Notes under the pieces: generated by a model | What the model was told of the DNA's origin: nothing | What the model saw: the letters and a program-made list of their open reading frames with translations, nothing else | The model's database searches: none | DNA from: Turritopsis dohrnii | Taxonomy: Eukaryota; Cnidaria; Hydrozoa; Anthoathecata; Oceaniidae | Assembly: GCA_027922465.2 (NCBI GenBank) | Contig: BQMF02000586.1 | Coordinates: 168,918 to 232,917 of the forward strand | Length of the DNA: 64,000 nt | Reading direction: 5' to 3' | Program-made: the position numbers and the translations under genes | In this document: positions 46,122 to 64,000 of the stretch, in pieces | Numbering within the stretch: position 1 is the first letter of the stretch | Layout of the letters: each line of letters starts with the position of its first letter

Positions 46122-46283
46122 TAAAAAGAGGGTATAAAATTTATAGTATTCATATTGTATACTTGACCGATGTTAATTAAACGTACAAACAATCAAATTC
46201 TGGCATAATTTAGGTTAGTCTGGATAATATTCCTTCTGTAATGATTTTACCCATGATACATGGGATAGTTGCACAAAAAACTA

Positions 46284-46751: not shown

Positions 46752-46753
46752 GT

Positions 46754-47677: not shown

Positions 47678-48658
47678 ATTCTCCATCACTCAACTATGGT
47701 GGGCAAAAAATGTTTTGATAATTGGCGGAGAACTTTCGGCAAAATTTTTGTATAACTAAACTACAGGGCTCTTACAAGAAAACATGGGTACATTCAAAAA
47801 TTGATACTTCAAAATAGATAAGTTGAAGTCATTATCCAGTTTTTTGAAGTGATAACTGCAATATGAACTGAGTTAGGATAGCCACGTAAAAACATTACCA
47901 AATAAATAAATTAACTGAAATATATCTTTTTATCATAGAAATAAACATGTTTCAGAAGGACAACATACAATAGAGTATTGAGAACTTTGTTGCGAGAACG
48001 GATTTTATTATATTCAAGCATCCGAAGTTATTAAACTCGATATTTCCGTTGTAAATAAAACAGGTGGCGCAAAATGAAACAAGCAAATTTACTTGCTATA
48101 CAAACGTGAAAAGCAGAACTTCAACATCAGTCATCAATCATTTCATAATGCAATAAATTCTAACTAGTACGTAGCTTTAGCTAAAAAATGCCCACGCACA
48201 CAAGAATTCCAATTTGTATACACAGCAAGCTATACATTCCAAGCTATACAACGGAAATAAAAACAATTTTTTTTCGAAAACAAAGGTTTTGGCTGATTGC
48301 GGGCTTGGTAAATGCTATACTTATAGGCTTAAATATTTCGTCAAAGCCAGTTTTTTAGGAAGTCTCAAAGCTGCTCAACACTCACTCAAAATCGTTTTAG
48401 AACTGTCTCGCTTTATGATCACAAGACGAGTAGCATCGAAGCTCCAGTCATAACAATTGTAACATTTAATGCATCGAAACAGGCATAAAATAAACCCTTT
48501 ATTCAAAGAGTTGACATGATGGCATCAATTGAACTTTAGGACAAACTCGATAATTGAAAAACTATTTAATCGGTCAATGGTCATTTAAAGAACAAGCAAT
48601 GTGTTATGAAGTCATTTCTATTGTTTTGAAAGAACAAGGGAGAATGGAGATAAAACTA
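47678..48658. other. No gene seen
   Basis: AT-rich sequence. A 79-codon frame at 48214-48453 lacks recognisable features. Confidence 0.35.
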
Positions 48659-49659
48659 GATGCCCTACCGGGCAGAAGTATTCCTGCAGATGACTGTAAG
48701 ACTTTCTAGAAAGATTTCAGAAAGAACTGATATTAGTTCACGCTTTAAAAAGATATGCATAATGCAGAATGATGTTGCGGTATTTTACATTTTACCTTTT
48801 AACAACGATAACAATTAAACTTTGTTGTCTCATATAAAACTTCAGTCTTGCTTCAATTTAGAGATTTTTTTAAAAAAGAGTTTAATTCAAAGTTGTATTC
48901 CCTAAAGAGTCTTCAAGAAGTAATTAAGTCATAAAAAGTTTGTCGCGTCAAGAAAAGTCTGTGCTTTAAAAGGTGAATGTTTGTTCACGGTTTAAAACAA
49001 TATGCATAATGTGGTATGATGTTCTTTGTGTTTTACAGTTTATCTTGTAGCTGTGAAAGAAGTAATATTTGTTATTTCATATAAACTGCACTGTTTTGCA
49101 TCATTTAGAGATTTTTTCAAAAAGTTTTTTATTCATAGTTATATTCCCTAAAGCATCTTCAAAAAGTAATTAAGTAATGAAAACTTTGTCACATTAAGTT
49201 TTGAAGGGAAAATCTGTGGCGTAAATAGTAATAACTTCGAATTCATTTAATTACATTCCCGAGAGCATCATAAAAGTTAAGAGACTTTGAAAAATTTTGC
49301 CGGAGATCAAGCTTAAAAAGGAACACCGTCAGTTTAAAAATCCATTCGAAAACACTCTTCCGTGGACGTTTCAAAATACTCCTTTTAAAACTATACAGTA
49401 TGAAAATCTTGATGTTGTTTGTACCTGAACTTCATAATAAAAACTTTTACTTGGCCTTGCGAAATAATAAAAATATCTGTGTTTCCTTTTTATCGTCAGC
49501 TTGATAGTATACAAATTTTAGAATCATACAATATTTTAAATTCGACTAGTCAATTAAAAAAGTGGTCATCTATTGATTAATAAAATGGGTATAAACTGAT
49601 GAGGAAGATGAGCTCTGCTTCAAGATTCCAGAGCTTTATAAAAATAGGATAGCTTACCT
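48659..49659. repeat. 1.0-kb duplicated segment, copy A
   Basis: Starts GATGCCCTACCGGGCAGAAG and ends AGGATAGCTTACCT. It reappears at 50249-50954 with an internal deletion of about 0.3 kb. Copy A also contains an older internal duplication: 48750-48975 and 48995-49200 both carry GATATGCATAATG-like and TTCCCTAAAG..TCTTCAA blocks. No ORF. Confidence 0.8.
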
Positions 49660-50248
49660 ACGAACATAAAATAGAAAATTGTATTATATTTAGAAAAAGA
49701 CTAATAGAAACCTTACGCATTTTTTTAAATCGATGTAAGCATACCGTTTTTGTAGTCGTTCATATCTGATTTGAAGCATCAAAAACTGCTTATTTATCAC
49801 GAATAACTACTAAGAGTATTAGTTTCACGTAGATTATCAGTTTGGATCATAAATGTTCTTGATTCTTTTAAGTTTTACAGCCGTACTACAACCTCTTCTA
49901 TATCCATATATTCAACAAAGAAACTTTCACAGATCTACGGATGCTTCTTCGCTTCCATTTTTAAAAGAACTACGGAAAACGTAAGAACGTTGCATAAGAC
50001 TCACATGAAACAACATTTTTACCTTGGCATCTGCGATTTAGCCATATGTTAATTATTCCTTTCACTAGAGCTTATATTTTACACTTTTAGAGTCTTTTCA
50101 AGCAAAGTACTTGTATACAATGAATATAGTGTGAGTTTAGACTGTTAAATCATAAAAAGAATGTAAGTTGGGAACATTAATGATTTGAGTGGCTATTTCC
50201 CATCGACAAATATTGGTTTAGGTTTGGACAGTGAAAAAAACAAAACAA
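49660..50248. other. Spacer between the duplicated segments
   Basis: AT-rich; no gene or clear repeat. Confidence 0.4.
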
Positions 50249-50954
50249 GATGCCCTACCGGCCAGAAGTATTCCTGCAGATGACTAGAAGACATTCTGGA
50301 GGCTTTTCAGAAAGAAAGCAATGTAAGTTCACGCTTTAAAACGATAACAACAATAACAACGATAGCAATTAACTTTGTTGTCTCATATAAAACTTCAGTC
50401 TTGCTTCAATTTAGAGATTTTTTAAAAAAGAATTTAATTCAAAGTTGTATTCCCTAAAGAATCTTCAAGAAGTAATTAAGTAATAAAAAGTTTGTCGCGT
50501 CAAGAAAAGTCTGTGCTTAAGAAGTAATAACTTCGAATTCATTTAATTACATTCTCGAGAGCATCATAAAAGTTAAGAGACTTTGAAAAATTTTGCCGGA
50601 GATCAAGCTTAAAAAGGAACACGGTCAGTTTAAAAATTCATTAGAGAACACTCTTCCGTGGACGTTTCAAAATACTCTTTTTAAAACTATACAGTATGAA
50701 AATCTTGATGTTGTTTGTACCTGAACTTCACAATAAAAACTTTTACTTGGCCTTGCGAAATAATAAAAATATCTGTGTTTCCTTTTTATCGTCAGCTTGA
50801 TAGTATACAAATTTTAGAATCATACAATATTTTAAATTCGACTAGTCAATTAAAGAAGTGGTCATCTATTGATTAATAAAATGGGTATAAGCTGATGAGG
50901 AAGATGAGCTGTGCTTCAAGATTCCAGAGCTTTATAAAAACAGGATAGCTTACC
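50249..50954. repeat. 1.0-kb duplicated segment, copy B (shortened)
   Basis: Matches copy A closely at both ends, lacking roughly 49000-49200. It ends exactly where the first viral-type unit begins (TAGAGATAGGACAGTGC at 50955). Confidence 0.8.
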
Positions 50955-51439
50955 TAGAGATAGGACAGTGCCGATTATAGGACAGAAATTGCATCCCTCC
51001 TAATTATAAGCGAGAATCCCTGTTAATTATTTTCTCATAAACATGAAATATTAACGTGGAAAATCATATGATTTCGGGTATTTCCCTTCATAAAGTTTAA
51101 GCATCACAATGTACTATAGCTATTTACTAATATTATCATCTAAGACCTTTGTTTTATAACGTGATAGGAGTTATGAAACGTGTTCAGCTTTTGTTATGAT
51201 TACATGGCATTTTTTTTATTTTGATTACATGCCAAGTTTTGATTACATAACAAAATTCTCAAATAACAACACGTAAGCAGTTTTAAATATTATTATTATA
51301 ACCACAAACTACTCAGAAATGTAAACAATTAAGTATCTCATAAAAATGTCCAGGGGAAATCCCCAATTGTAGTAAAAAGCATTTTGTAGCAGTTTAAATT
51401 TTATAACATAAATGAGCTAACAATACTCATAACACCCAG

Positions 51440-51510
51440 ATCAGCGTAGTCTAGTGGATAAGAACGCTAACTTGTAACCGCAAGGTCGTGTGTTCGAACC
51501 CCACGCAGTT
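51440..51510 (+). repeat. tRNA-like sequence at head of unit 1
   Basis: Box A TAGTCTAGTGG at 51447-51457 and box B GTTCGAACC at 51492-51500 are spaced as in a tRNA, with a TGT-like anticodon position (CTTGTAA). The anticodon stem does not pair, so it is not a working tRNA. The downstream 200 bp, including CTTGCATGAGTGCGCACTTC, are shared with unit 2, so this is either a tRNA-derived SINE duplicated with the unit or a tRNA-like part of the element. Confidence 0.6.
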
Positions 51511-51780
51511 CGTCTGAGAGGAAGTAGATATACTTCAGCGGTTGTAGATCTCTCATGTTCTGGTTGTTAAACTTGCATGAGTGCGCACTTCCCCGCAGTT
51601 GATTGAATATATCGCGGAACGGTTAGCATTTCGTCTGGGTGATTTATCACTGTCAGGTTTCTCTGGTCCATAGAGACATTCAGGTTAACGTTTTTCGATC
51701 GAAATTCAACAAACGCCAGGCCTTAGAAGTGTCAGCATGTATCCACAATGCCGGCTATTATTGCAAACTACATATGCTGA

Positions 51781-52938
51781 TCAGCGAAATATATACCATC
51801 TACCAAACATCGTGGTTATCGCTAAAATCAAAGCAATTTTCTCTTCTTCGTGAGATGGGAGTGAATCTGTTTGACTCACTCTTTTGTGAACTTCTCTCTG
51901 TGAACTTTTATTTTTTGTTTGTGTTGGAGAGCCAGTCACCTTGTTTGAAATATGATGCTCTTGCATAACATTAATCATTTTATTTCTTCCAAGGCTCAAA
52001 TTCTCATTAGATATGAGAATTTTGTTATTGTAACCAGACACCCCCGACTTGATGTTTAGATTCATGTCACTAGGTAACATGTAAATACCTTCTCCAACTG
52101 AATAATCAACTTTGCTTGAAGCGTAATTTAAAGTATCTTGATAACGTTTAATGTCATCTTGAATATCAACTCTGCGGTTAACAATGTCTTCAAAGTTGTT
52201 CATAAAAACTCTTTGGGCTGTCAAAGCGCTTGAATTATTACCTAAAATAGAAGAACAAGCTGAGGCTTGTGAACTAAGAACAAAATAAGCATATGCTCTA
52301 ACACTCTCTGAAATTTTTACAAGACCTGCTTTTGTAAAGCCTTTAGATTTTTTTATAATCCATCGTGTCATGGAGTCGTCTGTGAAATAACTTAGACCTG
52401 GCGTTGGATAGTCTCTACGTATTTTTTGATACGAGCTGTAAAAATATTGCCCTTTGTATTTTTTAGGATCAGAATCGACACCATATTCACTACAGATTTT
52501 TAAAAACTCTTCTTTGTTATAAGGATTATCGTATTGGTTGAAACTATCTTCAAAAGGTAGAGGTGTCTGCAGACGCTTAATGATTCGTCTAATATGATAA
52601 TAGACGTGAAAACGATATACTGCTCTAATCATAGGAGTAGAGCGACCTTCTTTCAGATGTTCAGAACTGACCCCACAAGCACTTGAAGCACACCAAGTGA
52701 CAAAATTGAGTTGGGTTTGCAATAATTTAAACGGTTGTTCCTGCCAAATTTTCATGCGTTGTTCATTTTCATCCATTTCGTAATTAGTAAAAATGTTGGG
52801 AAAGATCGCAGGAAAAGAACCATTTTTAGAGACAATAATTGTTTGTTTGTATAAATCTTTAGAATTCAATATCTGAAGGTCTTGTCCTCCATTTGGTTTA
52901 TAAAGCGCATTGGAAGCATATTTAAAAATGTTCTCCAT
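51781..52938 (-). CDS. ~385-aa virion-type protein with C-terminal hydrophobic segment, unit 1
   Basis: Starts at ATG 52936-52938 and ends at TGA. Conserved blocks shared with unit 2: FVTW.ASSACGVSSEHL near residue 80-95, FHVYYHIRRIIKRLQTPLP near 112-130, and SALTAQRVFMNNFEDIVNRR near 240. The last 20 residues are hydrophobic (IALILAITTMF) after a basic/Ser-rich linker, so a C-terminal membrane anchor is likely. No known enzyme motif is visible. It is divergent to the minor capsid gene with only 38 bp between the two ATGs. Likely structural or assembly role by context; function unproven. Confidence 0.7.
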   Translation of the reverse strand: MENIFKYASNALYKPNGGQDLQILNSKDLYKQTIIVSKNGSFPAIFPNIFTNYEMDENEQRMKIWQEQPFKLLQTQLNFVTWCASSACGVSSEHLKEGRSTPMIRAVYRFHVYYHIRRIIKRLQTPLPFEDSFNQYDNPYNKEEFLKICSEYGVDSDPKKYKGQYFYSSYQKIRRDYPTPGLSYFTDDSMTRWIIKKSKGFTKAGLVKISESVRAYAYFVLSSQASACSSILGNNSSALTAQRVFMNNFEDIVNRRVDIQDDIKRYQDTLNYASSKVDYSVGEGIYMLPSDMNLNIKSGVSGYNNKILISNENLSLGRNKMINVMQEHHISNKVTGSPTQTKNKSSQREVHKRVSQTDSLPSHEEEKIALILAITTMFGRWYIFR

Positions 52939-52976
52939 TATTTAAAAATATAATCCTCTATTCTCTAATACAAGAA
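52939..52976. promoter_or_regulatory. Divergent promoter region, unit 1
   Basis: Only 38 bp separate the two start codons. It contains TATTTAAAAATATA and TCTATTCTCTAATA, both conserved in unit 2 (59443-59487). It must hold both promoters or they overlap the coding starts. Confidence 0.5.
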
Positions 52977-53525
52977 ATGTATATCACAGTAAATGTTGCA
53001 AAAGGAGAAAAGACCTAATATCTATCTTACCCCATTCAAAATATGGATGGCTCAAAAGAAATTGCATTGCTTGAGATGTTTGCAGACAATGTAACGTATG
53101 AAATAACCGCTCCCCTAAAACTGGCTCTGTCTGTTGGAGAAGGAAAAGGAGAAAAGTGGCTACCACAAAGAACATTCACTAGCAGGGAATTGAAGGGATT
53201 TTTGACAGGCAATGTAGAACTTACCGCGTTAGACAAAAAACCTCAAGTAATCAAAACAAATAAGCTCGCTAACGTAACCAAAATTAATTTGCATCTCTCT
53301 GAACTTGACAACACTCAAAATCTTGAGGATGGACAGCTAAGTGATATTTTAATAACCGTTCCCATCGCTAATTATAGTGACATCACACAGGTTGAGCCTA
53401 AAAACCCTCAGCACAAAAAATTAAAAAATGGTGTATTTCAGTGTCTCACGTTGAAACTCACAGATCAGCGTGGCAATATGCTAAAAGAAGACCTGGGAAG
53501 AACCATTGTTTTGCACATTCGCTAA
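52977..53525 (+). pseudogene. Putative minor capsid (penton-like) protein, unit 1, N-terminal stop
   Basis: The equivalent of the 186-aa gene of unit 2. Its first 13 codons match from ATG 52977, but codon 14 is TAA (53016-53018) where unit 2 has ATA. Translation could restart at ATG 53043, giving 160 residues that keep the conserved NKLANVTKINLHLSELDNTQ block and the C-terminal VLHIR. A predicted beta-rich protein placed directly before the major capsid gene, as single-jelly-roll pentons are in many related viruses. The role is inferred from position. The difference from unit 2 is either a disabling mutation or an altered start. Confidence 0.55.
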
Positions 53526-53568
53526 ACCGAGATAAAAAGAAATAATAAATTACATATCATAATTAATA

Positions 53569-54888
53569 ATGGAGTATGGAAAAAGATTAAATCCAGAACG
53601 TTCACTTAGAACTGCCCGCGGTGAAAAAGGCTCTCGTCAAAAAGTAATTGTCACGCACAATCCGAGTGAGATCGACCAAAATCAGCTATTGTTGGTTAGA
53701 TTTCCAAATTTAGGAAGCGATGATGTTATTATTCCAGGAACAACTAATCTAAGTTTTGATATTGAACTCGAATCGAAAGCTGACTCAAAAAGAACATTGG
53801 TCAGTAACATTGAGAGAGCTATCGTTAAAAAGTTGGCTGTCAAGTTCGAAGGTAGCGAGATATTGAGTATCGATGACTTTGATCTTTTTGGGTGTTACAG
53901 AGATTTATGGTTAACCAAGTTTGAAAAGAGAAACTCGATAAGACAGGGTATCATCATCGACGATGGGTGTACAGAAAATTGTATGAAATTAAGGATTGGT
54001 GCTTCTGATAAAGACACCACTGATGCAGAAGACAAGGCCATTGCTGACACCTATAAAAACAAGTTTGTCATTCCACTTGACTTTGAGATGTTAGATAGTA
54101 CTATCCCATATTATCAAGCGGGTTTAGGGAATAGGTTATGCTGCGAGATCACATTTCACGATTATAACCGAGTTGTTTATTCTGACCCCCCAACTTCTGC
54201 CGCAGGTCAAAGAAAAACCCCAGACGGTAAATACAAAATATCTAACATCTCACTTGAATATGAGATTGTGACACACTCCACATTGGCTAGACAAATCACA
54301 TCTGAATACGAAAACATGGCTTTGCTCTATGATAGGATTTTGCGGCACAGACAAATTAGAGTAAACAAGTCAGACACAACGTGGAATTGGTCATTCAACA
54401 CACCTGCCAAATCTTTGAAGGGTATCTTAGTTCTGTTTGAAGAAGAAGAAGAATCCTACAAGCGAGATACCGGTAAATTCTACAATCCAAAGATCAAAAA
54501 GGTATCAGTCATCGTTGAAGGCAAGCCTAACCAACTTTTTGCTCAAGGGATGCAGCCGTTTGAACAATACAATGAGATTTGCAAGTATTTTGCTGAAGGA
54601 AAACCAAAAGATAATAGCGTCGGCGAAAACCGAAAGCGGCCGAGATTACATGATGTAAAAGTCTCTGATTACTTGACAAAAAAGTATGCTCTATGGTTAG
54701 ATTTCAGAACAATTGATGAGAATGTCTTGCATGGGACCGGTCGAAAGATTGAAAATGCGAGTGAAGGCATCACCTTACAGATTGAAAAGACAGCTGAAAC
54801 TGCAGGAAACTTAAACGCTTATATATATCTAATAATGGACGCTCAATTAAACATACAAGACGGTCAACTTATGTCTGCATTATATTAG
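53569..54888 (+). CDS. Putative double-jelly-roll major capsid protein, unit 1
   Basis: 439 residues from ATG (MEYGKRLNPERSLRTARG) to TAG. It is beta-rich throughout, with NQLLLVRFPNLGSDDVIIPG, a SFDIELES strand early, FVIPLDFEMLDSTIPYYQAG with a F/Y-rich turn in the middle (about 173-192) and LNAYIYLIMDAQLNIQDGQ at the end. The FVIPL...YYQAGLGNRL block before a second strand set resembles double-jelly-roll capsid proteins of Polinton/PLV-type viruses and related invertebrate proteins. Size fits a small DJR capsid. It sits between the penton-like gene and the packaging ATPase, the classical order. In the first 71 codons 12 of 13 changes against unit 2 are silent. Confidence 0.68.
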   Translation: MEYGKRLNPERSLRTARGEKGSRQKVIVTHNPSEIDQNQLLLVRFPNLGSDDVIIPGTTNLSFDIELESKADSKRTLVSNIERAIVKKLAVKFEGSEILSIDDFDLFGCYRDLWLTKFEKRNSIRQGIIIDDGCTENCMKLRIGASDKDTTDAEDKAIADTYKNKFVIPLDFEMLDSTIPYYQAGLGNRLCCEITFHDYNRVVYSDPPTSAAGQRKTPDGKYKISNISLEYEIVTHSTLARQITSEYENMALLYDRILRHRQIRVNKSDTTWNWSFNTPAKSLKGILVLFEEEEESYKRDTGKFYNPKIKKVSVIVEGKPNQLFAQGMQPFEQYNEICKYFAEGKPKDNSVGENRKRPRLHDVKVSDYLTKKYALWLDFRTIDENVLHGTGRKIENASEGITLQIEKTAETAGNLNAYIYLIMDAQLNIQDGQLMSALY

Positions 54889-54892
54889 TAAA

Positions 54893-55498
54893 ATGGACAC
54901 ACTTTACATGAAAGAGCCTCACACAGCATTATTCGTTGGACCAACATCGTGCGGTAAAACTGCCCATGTTGTAAAATTATTAGAAAACTGTTACTATGAT
55001 CACTTTGATTTCATCGTGATTATATGTCCCACCTTGAGGTGGAATCAGACTTACAGAGATCGGAAGTGGTTCTGGAATGACAGCTATGTGATTTTAATTG
55101 AACCGGAAGGATCTTTGTATGAATGGATTAAGAAAATGGACTTTTTCTGTGCTGGATACAAAACCTTATTCCTCGTTGATGACATCATCGCTGATGAAAA
55201 ATTGGACAAAAAGAGACAGTGTTTGCTTGAATTGGCAATTAGTGGTAGACATCGAAATCATTCGCTATGGTTACTCACACAATCATACACGGCTATACCT
55301 AAAAATTTACGACGGCAAGCTAAAATGTTATATGTGTGGCATCCAAAAGATAGAAACGATCTAGCCACTATACATGAAGAGAATGATGTCATTGATTCGC
55401 GAGAAGAATTGAAAAATGTCAAAGAAAAACTGAAAATAGGGAAACACGCGTGTCTAGTCATGAGAATGGAACACCCAAGAACGTATGTGATTTGCTGA
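54893..55498 (+). CDS. A32/FtsK-like genome-packaging ATPase, unit 1
   Basis: 201 residues. Walker A is FVGPTSCGKT (residues 14-23), Walker B TLFLVDDII (91-99), and a sensor-like LWLLTQSY (125-132) follows GRHRNHS, the pattern of A32-type packaging ATPases of DNA viruses with double-jelly-roll capsids. It would pump DNA into the procapsid. The ATG follows the capsid stop TAG after only four bases (TAG TAAA ATG), in both units, which suggests shared expression. ATPase length is short, as in Polinton-like viruses. Confidence 0.85.
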   Translation: MDTLYMKEPHTALFVGPTSCGKTAHVVKLLENCYYDHFDFIVIICPTLRWNQTYRDRKWFWNDSYVILIEPEGSLYEWIKKMDFFCAGYKTLFLVDDIIADEKLDKKRQCLLELAISGRHRNHSLWLLTQSYTAIPKNLRRQAKMLYVWHPKDRNDLATIHEENDVIDSREELKNVKEKLKIGKHACLVMRMEHPRTYVIC

Positions 55499-55558
55499 TC
55501 AGGTTGATGTTATTTGTTACATGACTCTTGTAACAAAGCTATAAGACTTGCAAGACTG
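55499..55558. other. ATPase 3' region, PPP1R15-like ORF absent in unit 1
   Basis: Directly after the ATPase the sequence matches unit 2 (GTTGATATATTTGTTACATGACT) but the 300-400 bp with the 83-aa gene of unit 2 are missing; the 44-bp repeats follow at once. Confidence 0.6.
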
Positions 55559-55663
55559 TTATAAGAAGATAGCAAACTCTTGTACAGCAAATTACAGCAA
55601 AATTATAAGAAGATAGCAAACTCTTATACAGCAAATTACAGCAAAATTATAAGAGAATATAAG
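55559..55663. repeat. 44-bp tandem repeats, unit 1 (two full copies plus partial)
   Basis: Unit TTATAAGAAGATAGCAAACT... at 55559-55602 and 55603-55646, then a partial copy at 55647. Each contains TTATAAGA and, inverted, TCTTATA/TCTTGTA, so each repeat has a palindromic core. Candidate origin, or a late promoter array. Confidence 0.75.
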
Positions 55664-55686
55664 AAAATTATGACAAGCACAACAAA

Positions 55687-55782
55687 ATGATACAATATGT
55701 CAACTTCATGTTATTAAGCATACTGCTGGTCTCGCTATTTTGATTTTATTCTGTATTAAAAAAATACCTCTCTCTAATAAAA
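55687..55782 (+). pseudogene. Small membrane-peptide leader, stopped in unit 1
   Basis: From ATG 55687 the frame encodes MIQYVNFMLLSILLVSLF and then hits TGA (55741-55743). In unit 2 the matching frame is open and runs on into the next gene. The hydrophobic stretch would be a signal anchor. Confidence 0.5.
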
Positions 55783-56322
55783 ATGGCGGAAACAGCGATC
55801 GATAATTTAATCGGCTACGATATTCCAGGTGAATTCCCACCACCACCTTCAGATGGTAAAAAGCAAAAATTGCTCGAGTGTGTCTTAACTGGAAATAGCA
55901 AGCTATACTTAGGGAAAATGTACACGGAAGAGCAAATTAACAAACTCAAAGATGAAGAGGTAGAAAAACTTTTTAGTATTTACGAGGCTAAACTATCAGG
56001 TCAAATGGTAAAATCCTTGGGGAAATCACTCATACGCACTTATTCCATGGGAGCTTGTGCAACGTTAGGAATAAACAATCAAGATGCATTGAGCAATGAC
56101 TTGGAAACTGACCCCTTCTTAAACTCTGCTCTTCAAAGATTTACATGTGACTTATATTATAAATTCGGCTCATTATTAGCACCACTCAGTGTTGGACTTA
56201 TTACCGGGAGGCATTACCTTAATGGAATAAATTTAAATAAATCCGATGATAATATAAATACAGCAGATAATAAAAATGTCAGAAGAACAGAATCCCATTC
56301 AAGTGACAACGAAAAACCCTAA
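55783..56322 (+). CDS. 179-aa conserved protein, function unknown, unit 1
   Basis: Starts ATG 55783, 13 codons after a CTCTCTAATAAAAATGG context. Blocks: KLYLGKMYTEEQINKLKDEE, EAKLSGQMVKSLGKSLIRTY, DPFLNSALQRFTCDLYYKFG and PLSVGLITGRHY. Alpha-helical look, no enzyme motif. Probably a virion or assembly protein by position. Its last 47 bases overlap the next ORF in another frame. Confidence 0.7.
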   Translation: MAETAIDNLIGYDIPGEFPPPPSDGKKQKLLECVLTGNSKLYLGKMYTEEQINKLKDEEVEKLFSIYEAKLSGQMVKSLGKSLIRTYSMGACATLGINNQDALSNDLETDPFLNSALQRFTCDLYYKFGSLLAPLSVGLITGRHYLNGINLNKSDDNINTADNKNVRRTESHSSDNEKP

Positions 56323-56614
56323 AAAGGTTGAAGCAGGTAAGAGGTTGGCAGAATACAACCGTAAAAAACGAGAAGAATTGAAACAAGTGTCACCTCAAAA
56401 AGAAGTGGAGAAGCCCGAGGACTCTCTCAGCAAACCAAATGAACAACCTATGAACAACACCTATGGTGGAATAATAGCTCTCGGTTTAGTTGGTGGATTT
56501 GCTTATTTTGTGTATAAAAAGAAAGAGCAAATATTACCCCGTGGGTCACCACCCACCCCACTTCCAAAAAAATCTAAAATACCGGTGAAAATCAATAAAC
56601 ATGAAATGGAATAA
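56276..56614 (+). CDS. 112-aa single-pass membrane protein, unit 1
   Basis: A basic N-terminus (KNPKKVEAGKRLAEYNRKKR), then IIALGLVGGFAYFVY (residues 65-79) as a membrane helix followed by KKKEQILPRG and a proline/lysine-rich tail. It overlaps the 179-aa gene by 47 bp. Positive-inside logic gives either topology; the basic tails suggest DNA or membrane-lumen contact. Confidence 0.7.
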   Translation: MSEEQNPIQVTTKNPKKVEAGKRLAEYNRKKREELKQVSPQKEVEKPEDSLSKPNEQPMNNTYGGIIALGLVGGFAYFVYKKKEQILPRGSPPTPLPKKSKIPVKINKHEME

Positions 56615-56659
56615 AAGGATAATCTGGCAATATATAATCTCACAATATATGTAACAAAC

Positions 56660-56887
56660 ATGGACAAGAAAAGTATCGTCAACGATTTATATCACGCATC
56701 AGTCGTCTGCGTTTTTGCTATCGGCTACTCTATGCTAGGAAAAAAGGTATTAAAAATGACACCTCCCTTAATTCAAAAGTTCGAATTGGAAGATACGGCA
56801 AAACTAGTTGCCATTATCGCCGCTGGTGAAATAACAAAGGATTACTTAATCAAACAAAAGATTTTGCCTGAAAATATCAATATCTAA
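56660..56887 (+). CDS. 75-aa small membrane protein, unit 1
   Basis: ATG 56660. A hydrophobic stretch (ASVVCVFAIGYSMLGKKVL) in the N-terminal half and a second mild one (KLVAIIAAGEI). Six amino-acid differences from unit 2. The next ATG follows two bases after its stop. Confidence 0.7.
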   Translation: MDKKSIVNDLYHASVVCVFAIGYSMLGKKVLKMTPPLIQKFELEDTAKLVAIIAAGEITKDYLIKQKILPENINI

Positions 56888-56889
56888 AT

Positions 56890-57312
56890 ATGGCTTCTAT
56901 CGCAATGATGTTAGGTGGAGCTTTAGCTAACGCTTTGGCTTTCACAGGATCAAGCTATCTGTTTTCAAGTTTATCCAAAGACAGAATCGATAAGGAAAGA
57001 AAACGTCATGATTTGGCCATAGAAAAATTACAAAAAGCACAGATTGAATGGCAGCAAAAACGACAGGAAAGGATCGATTTCATCAATAAACAACTAGCGC
57101 TCGAAAAGAAGGCTGAGACTAAATTCGTAGAGCTAAATGATGCAATGAGAGAGTACAATAGGGTGTTTGGTAATCATCTTGAACCATTACCACGGCAGCC
57201 TGTATTGAGCGACTTTTATACACCGACTCATGATCAACATGAAAGGGAATTGTATTTTATAGCTCTGAGTATGCTTGGAATTGGTGGAATTGTGTGGTAT
57301 TTTGAAAGATGA
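56890..57312 (+). CDS. 140-aa protein with N-terminal hydrophobic segment, coiled coil and C-terminal membrane segment, unit 1
   Basis: ATG 56890. Hydrophobic start (MMLGGALANALAFTGSSYLF), then a charged coiled-coil-like region (KRHDLAIEKLQKAQIEWQQK, EKKAETKF) and a C-terminal hydrophobic segment ending LSMLGIGGIVWYFER. It is intact here and begins in the same place in unit 2. Probably a membrane-bridging virion protein; the family is not recognised. Confidence 0.7.
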   Translation: MASIAMMLGGALANALAFTGSSYLFSSLSKDRIDKERKRHDLAIEKLQKAQIEWQQKRQERIDFINKQLALEKKAETKFVELNDAMREYNRVFGNHLEPLPRQPVLSDFYTPTHDQHERELYFIALSMLGIGGIVWYFER

Positions 57313-57369
57313 AGACCATCAACAAAAATTATGTTACACGATATATGTGACATATACACTTTCAGGTGG

Positions 57370-57576
57370 TTACCGTCTAGTGACAAGGTAGGTATAGATC
57401 AACCCTCCAACCCCTACAATCAGAGCCCATAAATTTTGACTTAACCAACCTACAACTTCTTTTGCTCTGTTCAATATCCATGATACGATAGACCCAATTA
57501 TTCCAGGTAAAGCCTCTGCCGCTTTAGATGTCAATCTGCCTAGAAGTGATGCTAACGCTTTGAGTTTTTTATCCAT
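57370..57576 (-). CDS. 68-aa hydrophobic, glycine-rich protein, unit 1
   Basis: ATG 57574-57576. Starts KKLKALASLLGRLTSKAAEA, then ALPGIIGSIVSWILNRAKEV and LWALIVGVGGLIYTYLV. The first half looks amphipathic, the second is a membrane helix. Such proteins are candidates for membrane-active virion peptides. Converges with the 140-aa gene 57 bp away. Confidence 0.6.
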   Translation of the reverse strand: MDKKLKALASLLGRLTSKAAEALPGIIGSIVSWILNRAKEVVGWLSQNLWALIVGVGGLIYTYLVTRR

Positions 57577-57879
57577 TCCTTTGCATCGTCCTTTTTATCA
57601 CCACCTTTAGAGATAGGAAAGTGCGGATGCTAGCGCAAAATCATATGATTTCGGGAATTTCCCTACTATAGCTAATATTATCATATAAGATCTTTGTTTT
57701 CATAACGCGATATGAGTTACGAAATGTGTTATTTTGATTACGTAAGCAGTTTCTATTATTATAACCACAAATTACTCATAATTGTAAACAATTAAATATC
57801 TCATAAAATGTAGTAAAAAGCAGTTTGTAGTAGTTTCATTTTTATAACATAAATGAGCTAACAATACATATGACATACA

Positions 57880-57950
57880 GATCAGCGTAGTCTAGTGGAT
57901 AAGAACGCTAACTTGTAACAACAAGGTCGTGTGTTCGATCCCCACTCGGT
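57880..57950 (+). repeat. tRNA-like sequence at head of unit 2
   Basis: Same box A (TAGTCTAGTGG, 57887-57897) and box B (GTTCGATCC, 57933-57941) as in unit 1. The anticodon-loop side reads CTTGTAACAACAAGG and does not pair either. Confidence 0.6.
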
Positions 57951-58113
57951 CTCTCATGTCCTGGTTGAAAAACTTGCATGAGTGCGCACTTCCCCGCAGT
58001 TGCGTTGGATATATCGCGGTTTGGGTAGACTTCGGTCTGGGTGATTAATCACTGTCAGGTTTCACTGGTCCACAGAGACATTCAGGTTACCGTCAAATCG
58101 ATCGAAATTCAAC

Positions 58114-58243
58114 ATAAACGTCAGGGCTTGAAGGTGTTAGCATGAACCTAAACTACTATCACATGTGGCTGTCGGGATATAAACGTCAGGGCTTGAAGGT
58201 GTTAGGATGAAGCTAAACTACTATCACATGTGGCTGTCGGTAC
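58114..58243. repeat. 65-bp tandem repeat, two copies (unit 2 only)
   Basis: ATAAACGTCAGGGCTTGAAG... at 58114-58178 and again at 58179-58243, with three differences. Unit 1 has a single, diverged counterpart (51710-51780). A weak hairpin CAAAACCCTAGG...CCTAAGGAGTTTTG follows at 58243-58275, next to the stop of the 387-aa gene. Confidence 0.8.
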
Positions 58244-58278
58244 AAAACCCTAGGGGGTTCTCCTAAGGAGTTTTGTTT

Positions 58279-59442
58279 TCAATAATAATAATAATACCAT
58301 ATACTAAACATCGTGGTAATCGCTAAAACCAAAGCTATTTTCTCTTCTTCATGAGATGGGAGTGAATCTGTTTGACTCACTACTCTTGTTTGAACTTTCT
58401 TTTGTGAACTTTTATTTTTTGTTTGTGTTGGAGAGCTAGTCACTTTGGGCGAAATATGATGCTCTTGCATAACATTAATCATTTTGTTTCTTCCGAGGCT
58501 CAAGTTGTCATTAGATATGAGAATTTTATTATTATAACCAGACACTCCCGACTTGATGTTTAGATTCATGTCACTAGGTAACATGTAAATACCTTGTCCA
58601 ACAGAATAATCAACCTTGCTTGAAGCGTAATTTAAAGTATCTTGATAACGTTTAATGTCATCTTGAATATCAACTCTGCGGTTAACAATGTCTTCAAAGT
58701 TGTTCATAAAAACTCTTTGAGCTGTCAAAGCGCTTGAATTATTACCTAAAATAGAAGAACGAGCTGAGGCTTGTGAACTAAGAACAAGATAAGCATATGC
58801 TCTAACACTCTCTGAAATTTTTACAAGACCTGTTTTTGTAAAGCCTTTAGATTTTTCTATAATCCATCGTGTCATGGAGTCGTCTGTGAAATAACTCACA
58901 CCTGGCGTTGGATAGTCTCTACGTCTTTTTTGATATGAACTGTAAAAATATTGCCCTTTGTATTTTTTAGGATCAGAATCAACACCATATTCACTACAGA
59001 TTTTTAAAAACTCTTCTTTATTATAAGGATTATCATATTGGTTGAAACTATCTTCAAAAGGTAGAGGTGTCTGCAGACGCTTAATGATTCGTCTAATATG
59101 ATAATAGACGTGAAAACGATATACTGCTCTAATCATAGGAGTAGAGCGACTTTCTTTCAGATGTTCAGAACTGACTCCACAAGCGCTTGAAGCAAACCAA
59201 GTGACAAAATTGAGTTGGGTTTGCCATATTTTAAACGGTTGTTCCTGCCAAATTTTCATACGTTGATCATTCTCTTCCATTTCGTAATTAGTAAATATAT
59301 TTGGAAAAGTTGCGGGGAAAGAACCGCTCTCAGAGACAATAATTGTTTGTTTGTATAAATCTTTAGCATTCAATATCTGAAGGTATTGTCCTCCATTGGG
59401 ATTATAAAGCGCATTGGGAACATATTTAAAAATATCCTCCAT
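58279..59442 (-). CDS. 387-aa virion-type protein, unit 2
   Basis: Same family as 51781-52938, with the same blocks. Its C-terminus ends FSIWYYYYY, because the gene runs into an ATA/TAT microsatellite just before its stop. The change leaves the hydrophobic segment in place. Start ATG 59440-59442. Confidence 0.7.
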   Translation of the reverse strand: MEDIFKYVPNALYNPNGGQYLQILNAKDLYKQTIIVSESGSFPATFPNIFTNYEMEENDQRMKIWQEQPFKIWQTQLNFVTWFASSACGVSSEHLKESRSTPMIRAVYRFHVYYHIRRIIKRLQTPLPFEDSFNQYDNPYNKEEFLKICSEYGVDSDPKKYKGQYFYSSYQKRRRDYPTPGVSYFTDDSMTRWIIEKSKGFTKTGLVKISESVRAYAYLVLSSQASARSSILGNNSSALTAQRVFMNNFEDIVNRRVDIQDDIKRYQDTLNYASSKVDYSVGQGIYMLPSDMNLNIKSGVSGYNNKILISNDNLSLGRNKMINVMQEHHISPKVTSSPTQTKNKSSQKKVQTRVVSQTDSLPSHEEEKIALVLAITTMFSIWYYYYY

Positions 59443-59487
59443 TATTATTATTTAAAAATATAATCCTCTATTCTCTAATACAAGAAA
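59443..59487. promoter_or_regulatory. Divergent promoter region, unit 2
   Basis: 45 bp between the start codons, sharing TATTTAAAAATATAATCC and TCTATTCTCTAATA with unit 1. Extra ATT units come from a microsatellite. Confidence 0.5.
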
Positions 59488-60048
59488 ATGTATATCACAG
59501 CAAATCTCGTAAGGGGTGAGAAGACCATATATCTATCTTACCCCATTCAAAACTTGGATGGCTCAAAAGAAATTGCATTGGTTGATATGTTTGCAGACAA
59601 TGTTACATATGAAATCACAACACCGATAACATTGAAAACGTCTGACGATGGGAAAGCTGAAAAGTCGATACCAAAACGAACATTCACGAGTAGGGGATTG
59701 AATGCCTTTTTAGCAGGTGCCTTTTTAGAAGGCGATATAGAAATTAAATCATTAGCCAAATACCCTCAAATAATCAAAACAAATAAGCTCGCTAACGTAA
59801 CCAAAATTAATTTGCATCTCTCTGAACTTGACAACACTCAAAATCTTGAGAAAGGAAAGCTAAGTGATATTTTACTAACCTATCACATGGTTGAATATAG
59901 TGACTTCACACATGTTCAGCCTAAAAACCCTCAATACAAAAAATTAAAAAATGGTGTATTTCAGTATCTCACGTTGAAACTCACAGATCAACATTGCAAT
60001 ATGCTAAAAGAAGACCTAGGTACAACCGTTGTTTTGCACATTCGCTAA
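59488..60048 (+). CDS. Putative minor capsid (penton-like) protein, unit 2, intact
   Basis: 186 residues from ATG. Starts MYITANLVRGEKTIYLSYPI, carries TYEITTPITL and NKLANVTKINLHLSELDNTQ, and ends TVVLHIR. It is beta-rich in look with no enzymatic motif. Between its middle and unit 1 the alignment varies most near residues 45-80. A single-jelly-roll penton role is inferred from position before the major capsid gene and from length. Confidence 0.6.
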   Translation: MYITANLVRGEKTIYLSYPIQNLDGSKEIALVDMFADNVTYEITTPITLKTSDDGKAEKSIPKRTFTSRGLNAFLAGAFLEGDIEIKSLAKYPQIIKTNKLANVTKINLHLSELDNTQNLEKGKLSDILLTYHMVEYSDFTHVQPKNPQYKKLKNGVFQYLTLKLTDQHCNMLKEDLGTTVVLHIR

Positions 60049-60095
60049 AACGAGATAAAAAGTAAAAATTAATTATATATCATAATTAATTAATA

Positions 60096-61412
60096 ATGGA
60101 GTATGGAAAGAGGTTAAATCCAGAACGTTCACTTAGAACTGCCCGCGGTGTAAAAGGTTCTCGTCAAAAAGTAATTGTCACACACAATCCGAGTGAGATC
60201 GATCAAAATCAGCTATTATTGGTTAGGTTTCCAAATTTAGGAAGTGATGATGTCATTATCCCAGGAACAACGAATCTAAGTTTTGATATTGAACTCGAGT
60301 CGAAAGCTGACTCAAAAAGAACATTGGTCAGTAACATTGGGAGAGCTATCGTTAAAAAGTTGGCTGTCAAGTTCGAAGGTAACGAGATATTGAGTATCGA
60401 CGACTTTGATCTTTTTGGGTGTTACAGAGATTTATGGTTAACCAAGTTTGAAAAGAGAAACGCGATAAGACAGGGTATCATCATCGATGATGGGTGTACA
60501 GAGAATTGTATGAAATTGAGGATTGGTGCTTCAGATAAAAAGGACGATGATGCGGAAGACAAAGCCATTGCTGACACCTATAAAAACAAGTTTGTCATTC
60601 CACTCGACTTTGAGATGCTAGATAGTACTATTCCATATTATCAAGCAGGTTTAGGTAATAGGCTTTGCTACGAGATCACATTTAACGACTATAACCGAGT
60701 TATTTATTCTGACCCTCTAGATACTGCCGCAGGTCAAAAACGTAACCCAGATGGTAAATACAAAATATCTAACAACTCACTTGAGTATGAGCTTGTGACA
60801 CAACCCACGTTGGCTAGACAAATCGTTTCTGAATATCAAAACATGGCTTTGCTCTATGATAGGATTTTGCGGCACAGACAAATTAGAGTAAACAAGTCAG
60901 ACACAACGTGGAATTGGTCATTCAACACACCTGCCAAATCTTTGAAGGGTATTTTAGTTCTATTTGAAGAAGAAAAATCCTACAAACGAGAAACCTGCAA
61001 ATTCTACAATCCAAAGATCGAAAAGGTATCTGTCATCGTCGAGGGTAAGCCTAACCAACTTTTTGCTCAAGGGATGCAGCCGTTTGAACAATACAATGAG
61101 ATTTGCAAATATTTTGCTGAAGGAAAACCAAAAGATAATAGCGTCGGCGAAAACCGAAAGCGCTTGGGATTACATGATGTAAAAGTCTCTGATTACTTAA
61201 CAAACAAGTATGCTCTATGGTTAGATTTCAGAACAATTGATGAGAATGCTTTGCATGGCACCGGTCGAAAGATTGAAAATGCAAGTGAAGGCATCACTTT
61301 ACAGATTGAAAAGACCGCTGAAACTGCAGGAAACTTAAACGCATATATATATCTAATAATGGATGCTCAATTAAACATACAAAACGGTCAATTTATGTCT
61401 GCATTATATTAG
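60096..61412 (+). CDS. Putative double-jelly-roll major capsid protein, unit 2
   Basis: 438 residues; one glutamate fewer than unit 1 in the E-run near residue 297 and about 30 substitutions elsewhere, clustered in an exposed-looking loop (around residues 145-155 and 205-215). Otherwise as described for unit 1. Confidence 0.68.
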   Translation: MEYGKRLNPERSLRTARGVKGSRQKVIVTHNPSEIDQNQLLLVRFPNLGSDDVIIPGTTNLSFDIELESKADSKRTLVSNIGRAIVKKLAVKFEGNEILSIDDFDLFGCYRDLWLTKFEKRNAIRQGIIIDDGCTENCMKLRIGASDKKDDDAEDKAIADTYKNKFVIPLDFEMLDSTIPYYQAGLGNRLCYEITFNDYNRVIYSDPLDTAAGQKRNPDGKYKISNNSLEYELVTQPTLARQIVSEYQNMALLYDRILRHRQIRVNKSDTTWNWSFNTPAKSLKGILVLFEEEKSYKRETCKFYNPKIEKVSVIVEGKPNQLFAQGMQPFEQYNEICKYFAEGKPKDNSVGENRKRLGLHDVKVSDYLTNKYALWLDFRTIDENALHGTGRKIENASEGITLQIEKTAETAGNLNAYIYLIMDAQLNIQNGQFMSALY

Positions 61413-61416
61413 TAAA

Positions 61417-62022
61417 ATGAACACACTTTACATGAAAGAACCTCACACAGCATTATTCGTCGGACCAACATCGTGCGGCAAAACGGATCGTGTCATAAAA
61501 TTATTAGAAAATGAATACTTTGATCACTTTGATTTCATCGTGATTATATGTCCCACCTTAAGGTGGAATCAAACATACAGAGATCGGAAGTGGTTTTGGA
61601 CTGACAACTATGTGATTTTAATTGAACCGGAAGGATCTTTGTATGAATATATTAAGAAAATGGACTTCTTTTGCGCCGGATACAAAACCTTATTCCTCAT
61701 TGACGACATCATAGCTGATGAAAAATTGGACAAAAAGAGAAATTCTTTGCTCGAGTTGGCAATTAGTGGTCGCCATCGAAACCATTCGCTATGGTTACTT
61801 ACACAATCATACATGGCTATACCTAAAAATTTACGACGGCAAGCTAAAATGTTATATGTGTGGTATCCAAAAGATAGAAACGATCTAGCCACCATTCATG
61901 AAGAGAACGATGTCATTGAATCGCAAGAAGAATTGAAAAATGTCAAGGAAAAACTGAAAGAAGGTAAACACACGTGCCTAGTCATGAGAATGGAACACCC
62001 AAGAACGCACATGATTTGTTAA
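61417..62022 (+). CDS. A32/FtsK-like packaging ATPase, unit 2
   Basis: 201 residues with Walker A FVGPTSCGKT, Walker B TLFLIDDII and LWLLTQSY, all conserved relative to unit 1. Same TAG TAAA ATG junction with the capsid gene. Confidence 0.85.
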   Translation: MNTLYMKEPHTALFVGPTSCGKTDRVIKLLENEYFDHFDFIVIICPTLRWNQTYRDRKWFWTDNYVILIEPEGSLYEYIKKMDFFCAGYKTLFLIDDIIADEKLDKKRNSLLELAISGRHRNHSLWLLTQSYMAIPKNLRRQAKMLYVWYPKDRNDLATIHEENDVIESQEELKNVKEKLKEGKHTCLVMRMEHPRTHMIC

Positions 62023-62073
62023 ACAGGTTGATATATTTGTTACATGACTGTTGTAACAAAAACTGTAAGACTG

Positions 62074-62325
62074 TTATAAGTCTCCTATAAGACTATTGTA
62101 AGAGAATAATTTACGTCTCAATACAGGATCTAGAATTTTACCATTATGTTTAATCCTCGATTCAAAGCGTACTCTGTCAACAGCAGCCTCTATCCAGTTA
62201 CTTCTACGAGATTCACAAGCAGAGATATAATGGACCATTACTTTATCATTAAAAGTAACCCTTTTTGTATCTTGATGGGAAAATATAATATCATCATCTG
62301 AGGATTCATCATCATCATCGAACAT
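62074..62325 (-). CDS. PPP1R15/GADD34-like PP1 regulatory protein, unit 2
   Basis: 83 residues from ATG 62323-62325. An acidic N-terminus (FDDDDESSDDD) is followed by RVTF at residues 22-25, a match to the RVxF docking site for protein phosphatase 1. Then VHYI, W44, and DRVRF with R57-I58 (residues 50-58). The order RVxF, V-x-hydrophobic, W, D-R-x-x-F-x-x-R-I is that of the PPP1R15 C-terminal domain, shared by GADD34 and by viral counterparts in herpes- and asfarviruses, which recruit PP1 to dephosphorylate eIF2-alpha. Role here would be to keep translation going during a stress or antiviral response. It has no copy in unit 1. Transcribed opposite to its neighbours. Confidence 0.72.
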   Translation of the reverse strand: MFDDDDESSDDDIIFSHQDTKRVTFNDKVMVHYISACESRRSNWIEAAVDRVRFESRIKHNGKILDPVLRRKLFSYNSLIGDL

Positions 62326-62418
62326 AATTGTTTAAGTAAACAATGTTTATTTATTTAACAATGTTAGAATATATTATTAAACATCGTCATCCTCTTATAA
62401 TTATTTTGTCAACAAAAT

Positions 62419-62567
62419 TATAAGAAGACAGCAAACTCTTATACAGTAAATTTCAACAAAATTATAAGAAGACAGTAAACTCTTATACAACAAATTTCAA
62501 CAAACTTATAAGAGGATAGCAAACTCTTATACAACAAATTTCAACAAAATTATAAGAGAGTATAAGA
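62419..62567. repeat. 44-bp tandem repeats, unit 2 (three full copies plus partial)
   Basis: Copies at 62419-62462, 62463-62506 and 62507-62550 and a partial from 62551. Same TTATAAGA/TCTTATA core as in unit 1. Repeat number differs between the units (two and three). Confidence 0.8.
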
Positions 62568-62590
62568 AAATTATAACAAACACAACAAAA

Positions 62591-63235
62591 ATGATAGAAT
62601 ATGTCAACTTCGTGTTATTAAGCATACTGCTGATCTCGCTATTTTACTTTTATTTTGTGTTAAAAAAATACCTCTCTCTAATAAAAATGGCGGAAACAGC
62701 GATCGATAATTTAATCAACCAGAGTTATGATGTTCCGGGTGAATTTCCACCTTCAGATGGTAAAAGACAAAAATTACTCGAGTGTGTCTTAACCGGGAAA
62801 AGCAAGCTATACTTAGGGAAAATGTACACGGAAGAGCAAATTAACAAACTCAAAGATGAAGAGGTAGAAAAACTTTTTAGTATTTACGAGGCTAAACTAT
62901 CAGGTCAAATGTTAAAATCCTTGGGGAAATCACTGATACGCATTTATTCGATGGGGGCTTGTACAACGTTAGGAATAAACAATCAAGAAGCGCTGAGCAA
63001 TGACCTGGAAACTGACCCCTTCTTAAACTCTGCCCTTCAAAGATTTACGTGTGACTTATATTATAAATTCGGCTCATTATTAGCACCACTCAGTGTTGGA
63101 CTTATTACCGGGAGGCATTATATCAATGAAAGGAATTTAAATAAATCCGATGATAATATAAATACAGCAGATAATAAAAATGTCAGAAGAACAGACTCCC
63201 ATTCAAGTGACAACGAAGAACCCAAAAAAGGTTGA
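62591..63235 (+). CDS. 214-aa protein: signal-anchor extension plus conserved 179-aa protein, unit 2
   Basis: From ATG 62591 the frame gives MIEYVNFVLLSILLISLFYF, a hydrophobic anchor, then runs in frame through KKYLSLIK into MAETAIDN (ATG 62687), the start used in unit 1. The downstream blocks match the 179-aa protein of unit 1, with a few changes. Whether the start is 62591 or 62687 is open; unit 1 has a stop in the extension, which supports 62687 for the core protein. Confidence 0.6.
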   Translation: MIEYVNFVLLSILLISLFYFYFVLKKYLSLIKMAETAIDNLINQSYDVPGEFPPSDGKRQKLLECVLTGKSKLYLGKMYTEEQINKLKDEEVEKLFSIYEAKLSGQMLKSLGKSLIRIYSMGACTTLGINNQEALSNDLETDPFLNSALQRFTCDLYYKFGSLLAPLSVGLITGRHYINERNLNKSDDNINTADNKNVRRTDSHSSDNEEPKKG

Positions 63236-63527
63236 AGCGGGTAAGAAGTTGGCGGAATACAACCGTAAAAAACGAGAACAATTAAAACAAGTGTCACCTC
63301 AAAAAGAAGTGAATAAGCTCGATGACTCTCTCACCAAACCAAATGAACAACAACCTATGAATTACACCTATGGTGTAGGTGGAATAATAGCTCTCGGTTT
63401 AGTTGGTGGATTTGCTTATTTTATGTATAAAAAGAAAGAGCAAATATTACCCCGTGGGTCACCATCCACCCCACTTCCACAAAAATCTAAAATACCAGTG
63501 AAAATCAATAAACATGAAATGGAATAA
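63180..63527 (+). CDS. 115-aa single-pass membrane protein, unit 2
   Basis: Same as the 112-aa protein of unit 1, with three more residues in the linker (YTYGVGGIIALGLVGGFAYF). Overlaps the preceding gene by 56 bp. Confidence 0.7.
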   Translation: MSEEQTPIQVTTKNPKKVEAGKKLAEYNRKKREQLKQVSPQKEVNKLDDSLTKPNEQQPMNYTYGVGGIIALGLVGGFAYFMYKKKEQILPRGSPSTPLPQKSKIPVKINKHEME

Positions 63528-63553
63528 AAAGAAAAAATGTATATATAACAAAC

Positions 63554-63781
63554 ATGGACAAGAAAAGTATCATCAACGATTTATATCATGCATCAGTTGT
63601 CTGCGTTTTCGCTATCGGCTACTCTATGCTAGGAAAAAAGGTGTTAAAAATGACACCACCCTCTATTCAAAAGTTCGACTTGGAAGATACGGGAAAACTA
63701 GTTGCCATTATCGCCGCTAGTGAAGTGACGAAGGACTACTTAATCAAACAAAAGATTTTGCCTGAAAATATCAATATCTAA
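63554..63781 (+). CDS. 75-aa small membrane protein, unit 2
   Basis: Six residue changes from unit 1 (V7I, L37S, E42D, A47G, G56S, I58V), mostly conservative, with the same hydrophobic layout. Confidence 0.7.
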   Translation: MDKKSIINDLYHASVVCVFAIGYSMLGKKVLKMTPPSIQKFDLEDTGKLVAIIAASEVTKDYLIKQKILPENINI

Positions 63782-63783
63782 AT

Positions 63784-64000
63784 ATGGCTTCTATCGCAAT
63801 GATGTTGGGTGGAGCTTTGGCTAACGCTTTGGCTTTCACAGGATCAAGCTATCTATTTTCAAGTTTATCCAAAGACAGAATCGATAAGGAAAGAAAACGT
63901 CATGATTTGGCCATAGAAAAATTACAAAAAGCACAGATTGAATGGCAGCAAAAACGACAGGAAAGGATCGATTTCATCAATAAACAACTATTGCTCGAAA
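63784..64000 (+). CDS. 140-aa-type protein, partial (cut by window end), unit 2
   Basis: ATG 63784, two bases after the preceding stop. The 72 codons inside the window match unit 1 almost exactly (MASIAMMLGGALANALAFTG...), with one change near the end (QLLLEK instead of QLALEK). Confidence 0.7.
   Translation, partial: MASIAMMLGGALANALAFTGSSYLFSSLSKDRIDKERKRHDLAIEKLQKAQIEWQQKRQERIDFINKQLLLE

Follow-up and report, generated by a model that had tools for sequence, protein, structure and literature searches.

Two head-to-tail copies of a 6.65-kb virus-like capsid gene unit in the genome of Turritopsis dohrnii

Contig BQMF02000586.1 of the hydrozoan Turritopsis dohrnii (assembly GCA_027922465.2) carries a 6.65-kb unit of virus-like genes repeated head to tail, which raises the question whether so small a gene set can be a complete element with a double jelly-roll (DJR) capsid or belongs to something else. 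We analysed 64,000 nucleotides of this contig (positions 168,918 to 232,917, forward strand), hereafter the window, and all coordinates are counted from its first letter. A first-pass annotation, made from the letters alone, had described an array of a capsid module without replication genes and had proposed either a very small DJR virus or a domesticated gene set. The answer that we favour, with slightly less than even confidence, is that the locus holds two endogenous copies of a very small DJR element, the whole gene set of which would be the 6.65-kb unit and the polymerase of which would be borrowed.

The repeated unit and its genes

The start of the unit at 50955 reappears at 57608, 6653 bp further on (50955-50975 against 57608-57628, 90.5% of 21 bases identical) and directly after the last gene of copy 1. 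A blastn comparison of the window with itself aligned the copies in two large blocks of 90.7% and 91.4% identity, ~91% overall, as far as the window end, where position 64000 aligns with 57106 of copy 1. Matching parts are spaced by 6441-6527 bp on the left and by 6894-6913 bp on the right, because copy 2 has an extra stretch of ~370 bp. The gene order, running rightwards from a gene-free left region of ~0.7-0.8 kb, is common to both copies, and we judge that chance does not account for a repeat of 6.6 kb in which the order of the genes is kept. The earlier description of two copies of the same 6,653-bp unit is therefore correct for the recurring start and the gene order, while the copies are similar rather than the same; the word array goes too far for two visible copies, the second of which is cut at 64000. 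No further copy was found elsewhere in the window by tblastn with 10 unit proteins (E ≤ 0.01), and the window contains no N. On its left edge, copy 1 adjoins a repeat (50374-50956, 92% identical to 49068-49660), the similarity of which stops at the unit start; this repeat structure extends over 48652-50956, with copies ~1.3-1.6 kb apart and an internal repeat of ~247 bp.

As stated previously, the open reading frames (ORFs) of the unit are compact and open without introns. Its three largest proteins are the capsid protein, the packaging ATPase and a protein of 385 or 387 amino acids (aa), and there are no other large ones. Structure prediction of the copy 2 capsid protein, previously called capsid-like, specifically matched DJR capsids at low model confidence (predicted local distance difference test, pLDDT, 46); the low template-modelling scores by query length (TM-scores 0.16-0.28) are attributed to the poor model. 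All 20 PDB chains found at E ≤ 0.001 (11 entries, 8 viruses) come from DJR virus capsids or capsid scaffolds, the best being a Sputnik virophage structure, and each chain, partly on the basis of its title and length, is taken to be the DJR protein itself. In a viral structure library, the same model gave 22 matches at E ≤ 0.001 and the 387-aa model of similar confidence gave none. Seven of the 22 are named capsid proteins, 12 are unnamed or uncharacterised, one is a named BTB-domain protein, and the other two, B646L and LO7, are presumably capsid genes. The 438/439-aa protein is thus probably a DJR capsid protein, as far as a model of low confidence allows.

The 201-aa protein is by its sequence an A32-type packaging ATPase, as had been proposed from its Walker motifs: it contains a P-loop and matches Pfam Pox_A32 (PF04665) at E 1e-9, above the gathering score, and a PHROG terminase large subunit at E 1.6e-11. 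PF04665 is precomputed for 117 of the best 120 of its 4069 homologues. Directly upstream of the capsid gene lies the gene of a 186-aa protein without family match in Pfam, PHROGs or NCBIfam. In Polintons, according to PMC4028283, the penton gene occupies this place, and the 186-aa protein is perhaps, by position alone, a minor capsid protein of penton type. The PDB chains that match it best, from replicative DNA helicases (E 0.019 and 0.034, ~60 residues), weigh weakly against a penton; the match was judged to be chance, as it covers one third of the protein and no family library concurs. The 186-aa and 438-aa proteins listed in the first-pass annotation are present, in the versions of copy 2; in copy 1, a premature stop interrupts the 186-aa gene. 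For the 387-aa protein neither Pfam nor NCBIfam gave a match, and its model is mostly helical with a C-terminal helix, at low confidence (pLDDT 50).

Searches of the unit proteins in Pfam, PHROGs and NCBIfam (PHROGs for all but the 75-aa and 68-aa proteins) gave no match to polymerase, integrase, helicase, Rep or protease families. Specifically, up to the window end at 64000 they revealed no protein-primed PolB and no rve integrase within the unit, and no virion-maturation cysteine protease, a divergent form of which could escape. The largest stretch without an assigned gene measures 826 bp (50955-51780), so the gaps leave no place for a PolB. The statement that the unit has neither replication genes nor room for them was accordingly supported, in the sense that none are detectable and that little room is left for one. 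The features of both copies are:

50955-57607, no strand: copy 1 of the unit, 6653 bp, start motif back at 57608
57608-64000, no strand: copy 2 of the unit, truncated at the window end, from self-blastn of the window
50955-51780, no strand: gene-free region, copy 1, short mechanical ORFs, 14-bp palindrome at 51061-51074
57608-58278, no strand: gene-free region, copy 2, same 14-bp palindrome at 57638-57651
51444-51511, plus: tRNA-like segment, copy 1, RNA polymerase III (Pol III) A-box and B-box, ends set by eye
57885-57950, plus: tRNA-like segment, copy 2, Pol III A-box and B-box
51781-52938, minus: 385-aa protein, copy 1 (ORF, tblastn)
58279-59442, minus: 387-aa protein, copy 2 (ORF; 3524 homologues)
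52977-53525, plus: candidate minor capsid (penton) gene, copy 1, interrupted by a premature stop close to its N-terminus, 53043-53525 open (160 aa)
59488-60048, plus: candidate minor capsid (penton) protein, 186 aa, copy 2 (position only)
53569-54888, plus: probable DJR major capsid protein, 439 aa, copy 1, 92.7% identical to copy 2
60096-61412, plus: probable DJR major capsid protein, 438 aa, copy 2 (predicted structure; 2926 homologues)
54893-55498, plus: A32-type packaging ATPase, 201 aa, copy 1 (Pfam PF04665, E 1e-9)
61417-62022, plus: A32-type packaging ATPase, 201 aa, copy 2 (PHROG terminase large subunit, E 1.6e-11)
62074-62325, minus: predicted 83-aa protein phosphatase 1 (PP1)-binding protein, PPP1R15/DP71L type, copy 2 only (Pfam PP1c_bdg, E 4.2e-7)
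55783-56322, plus: 179-aa protein, copy 1 (ORF)
62687-63235, plus: counterpart of the 179-aa protein, copy 2, within a 214-aa ORF starting at 62591; the copy 1 stretch corresponding to the N-terminal extension of this ORF contains a stop
56276-56614, plus: 112-aa protein with hydrophobic segment, copy 1 (ORF)
63180-63527, plus: 115-aa protein with hydrophobic segment, copy 2 (ORF, tblastn)
56660-56887, plus: 75-aa protein, copy 1 (ORF)
63554-63781, plus: 75-aa protein, copy 2, open (alignment to copy 1)
56890-57312, plus: 140-aa protein, copy 1 (ORF)
63784-64000, plus: 140-aa protein, copy 2, truncated at the window end (alignment, tblastn)
57370-57576, minus: 68-aa hydrophobic protein, copy 1; the corresponding place of copy 2 is outside the window (ORF, tblastn)

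Divergence of the copies and their relatives

Comparison of the copies revealed that the reading frames were under selection. Six genes together show 346 nucleotide differences, 189 of them at third codon positions (p 3.6e-16 against one third); two of these genes overlap by 47 bases, and a few differences were perhaps counted twice. Ratios of nonsynonymous to synonymous change (dN/dS, by NG86 and YN00, respectively) were 0.23 and 0.22 for the 387-aa protein, 0.18 and 0.27 for the capsid protein, 0.17 and 0.23 for the ATPase and 0.17 and 0.22 for the 179-aa protein; they were higher for the 112-aa (0.44 and 0.52) and 186-aa (0.64 and 0.49) proteins. Insertions and deletions (indels) were counted on a piecewise alignment from 51788 and 58290 rightwards, with ORF ends ignored and the copy-2-only stretch left out. 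Their length is divisible by three in eight of nine cases in coding sequence and one of nine between genes; a separate count for the long noncoding region gave two of 12. Pooled, this is 8/9 coding against 3/21 noncoding (p 0.0002, Fisher's test). In a neutral simulation of seven genes at 4.5% change, 0.1% of 1000 runs ended with one premature stop or none; copy 1 contains a single one, in the candidate penton gene. Apparent stops in the copy 1 slices of the 385-aa and 179-aa genes are artefacts of slicing past the natural stop and into the N-terminal extension. Judging from these sequences, the genes of the copies were probably functional during most of the divergence.

In a protein database clustered at 90% identity, the capsid protein, the 387-aa protein and the ATPase have 2926, 3524 and 4069 homologues, respectively, at E ≤ 0.001, of which the best 120 were listed for each query. 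Among the matches listed, the contigs hosting relatives range up to 11.5 Mb. Inspection by eye of those below 15 kb found a 4649-bp contig in all three lists of 120 and contigs of 3940, 3973, 13808 and 14144 bp in two lists each, equal size being taken to indicate the same contig; the two longest measure roughly twice the unit. No relatives were found in IMG/VR, phage records and the GTDB genomes searched, and tblastn of the capsid protein against a phage collection gave no match. A capsid tree of 25 rows, built from both copies plus 23 homologues out of the 120 listed, shows the copies as sisters (97/90) with the homologue P0001 next. Capsid identity is 92.7% between the copies, and P0001 is 92.2% and 92.7% identical to them; the 387-aa proteins of the copies share 90.9%, as against at most 83.9% with the four best relatives compared.

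The extra ~370 bp of copy 2, between the ATPase and 179-aa genes, holds an 83-aa minus-strand ORF which the earlier gene inventory had left out. Its protein matches Pfam PP1c_bdg at E 4.2e-7, above the cut-off, and in the PDB PPP1R15B chains (E 7.5e-6 and 1.2e-5) and DP71L (E 0.0013). Known PPP1R15/DP71L members bring PP1 to eIF2-alpha, which is then dephosphorylated; DP71L itself comes from African swine fever virus, and genes of this type are found in some animal DNA viruses. By its predicted activity, the gene suggests an animal host, with whose translational shut-off the element would be in conflict. The gene is missing from copy 1, and a 7-bp direct repeat, found by eye, marks the edges. 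Since the DNA there is repetitive, this repeat suggests only weakly that copy 1 lost the gene.

The noncoding region of both copies contains a tRNA-like segment with an A-box and a B-box, detected by a pattern scan without shuffle control. The B-box pattern was derived from the segment itself and its sole two matches were the two copies, which makes for a weak shuffle test. A true tRNA gene was dropped as an explanation, and the name tRNA-like is used only as a description: ARAGORN called no tRNA gene, Rfam gave nothing above gathering score in the window, and a laxer Rfam scan of 50900-58300 gave a single snoRNA match (E 0.53) outside the segment. The segment may be a short interspersed nuclear element (SINE) inserted in the common ancestor of the copies, or a Pol III gene of the element, which would resemble adenovirus virus-associated (VA) RNA. 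A possible target-site duplication, GATCAGCG at 51439 and 51779, was discarded as weak, the word occurring four times in 50901-58400. Two further A-box/B-box segments, at 24154 (minus) and 41439 (minus), are possibly tRNA-derived SINEs.

A small self-contained element and its rivals

In the favoured reading, the unit, which approaches 7 kb if the additional gene of copy 2 is counted, would encode a particle made from the DJR capsid protein, perhaps the penton-like minor capsid protein, the A32-type ATPase and small hydrophobic proteins, and the element would package its own DNA. This DNA would be copied by a polymerase not encoded in the unit, and the simplest source of it would be the host nucleus. 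If a circle or concatemer of unit length then integrated, or recombined with a resident copy, either event would lead to the head-to-tail order. It is possible, if rather doubtful, that such elements represent widespread minimal DJR animal viruses of ~6.7-7 kb, replicase-less, copied by the host polymerase and integrated, some with a PP1-recruiting gene of the GADD34/DP71L type and maybe with the tRNA-like segment as a Pol III gene.

Several points weigh against a self-contained element. Only two copies are seen, the element is known here from DNA sequence alone, and the unit may belong to something larger, as the window ends at 64000. The 387-aa protein, given its low-confidence model, may be an unfamiliar replication protein. 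Copy 1 has one premature stop, in the candidate penton gene, and the sole coding indel not divisible by three, a gap of 1 bp, lies in the 385-aa gene close to its 3' end. The noncoding region, 89.5% identical without gaps, is close to the genes (85.0-97.7%), so that selection is visible in indels and codon positions and not in overall identity. If the tRNA-like segment is a SINE, the common ancestor of the copies was already in the host genome, and a transposon-like, in-place history would be favoured over repeated infection.

Comparison with known systems gave likeness in the particle genes and difference in the rest. With Polintons/Mavericks and adintoviruses the unit shares a DJR capsid, an A32/FtsK-type ATPase, a possible penton gene upstream of the capsid gene and residence in an animal genome. 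It differs from them by the lack of PolB, integrase and protease in the unit, by the absence of visible long terminal inverted repeats and by its size, 6.65 kb against 15-20 kb for Polintons (PMC4028283). Polintons carry PolB, integrase and protease besides capsid and packaging genes (same paper), and adintoviruses have PolB and integrase (PMC11071296). Polinton-like viruses and virophages likewise have a DJR capsid, with Sputnik as the best PDB match of ours, and a packaging ATPase; the survey PMC10120064 gives them ~14-40 kb and describes integrated eukaryotic DJR viruses in general as elements of roughly this size; such viruses are described as bringing replication genes. The particle genes therefore look like those of a DJR virus, but membership in the Polintons is not established. 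Similar by description are cnidarian capsid proteins recorded outside the main Maverick-Polinton cluster (PMC10120064), which like that of the unit are divergent DJR proteins in animals. The same kind of likeness holds for adabscovirus and for meldviruses without recognisable PolB and integrase, which according to PMC11071296 have virion genes of adenovirus/adomavirus class without recognisable replicase; adabscovirus is a circle inferred from fish data, whereas the unit is integrated.

The main rival, which we consider unlikely, takes the unit for the capsid (morphogenesis) portion of a Polinton-like element of larger size, the first 6.65 kb of which would have been tandemly duplicated and the polymerase and integrase of which would follow beyond 64000. 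DJR capsid genes have been recorded in Polintons of Hydra and Nematostella vectensis (PMC4028283), and relatives of the unit, among the matches listed, occur on contigs of many sizes up to 11.5 Mb. However, copy 1 adjoins foreign DNA at 50955 and copy 2 opens with the same start sequence, so each copy looks like a unit from start to end. Moreover, no inverted repeat of at least 100 bp was reported in 50000-64000 (seed 20; the right end lies beyond the window), and none of 17 short inverted pairs in 50900-58300 connects both ends of copy 1.

Replication could also be supplied from outside, if the unit is a satellite or the capsid segment of a multipartite virus and an obligate helper (e.g. a Polinton or adintovirus) or a partner segment with the replicase copies and perhaps integrates it. 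Such an option is discussed for replicase-less virion gene sets in PMC11071296, which also allows for several segments in bidnaviruses; as no helper is seen within the 64-kb window, we regard it as improbable.

A gene set that was domesticated for particle production and amplified locally, by analogy with gene transfer agents or wasp viral particles, would account for the selection on the reading frames, the sister position of the copies in the capsid tree (97/90) and the tRNA-like segment common to both. Nevertheless, the 2926, 3524 and 4069 homologues in the 90%-clustered database point to a mobile or viral family, and copy 1 is decaying, with a premature stop in the candidate penton gene and the probable loss of the PP1-binding gene, which makes domestication very improbable. 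Between the two options offered by the first-pass annotation, the small DJR virus is thus the better one, the thousands of homologues and the PPP1R15/DP71L-type gene rendering the other less likely. An assembly artefact joining two separate copies of a dispersed element is hardly to be expected, because the unit start is repeated directly at the junction in a window without N, even if repeats ~9% apart are hard for short reads.

What would be new is the size and completeness of the unit, as capsid and packaging genes and replicase-less virion sets are already known; among the open-access papers listed by our searches, none has a title or abstract that deals with a capsid-only unit of 6.65 kb like the present one. 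If self-contained, such a unit would lower the minimal size of DJR viruses and make a DJR DNA virus living on host polymerase alone testable. An early survey discarded Polinton-like elements below 10 kb as incomplete (PMC4028283, methods), and 6.65-kb units may have been passed over by survey design. With thousands of homologues in public data, the question is answerable from existing contigs.

Surrounding DNA

The rest of the window carries a Helitron, Mutator-like and BEL/Pao elements and other reverse transcriptases, in agreement with its earlier description as full of eukaryotic transposons. The Helitron at 7368-13112 has Helitron_like_N and PIF1 helicase domains, and a protein encoded upstream of it has a Herpes_teg_N domain. 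A 1-kb repeat is present in two copies, 3953-4968 and 45118-46123, which are 97% identical. Close to the second of these, 46282-46754 (~470 bp) matches its own reverse complement at 72% and contains shorter inner repeats.

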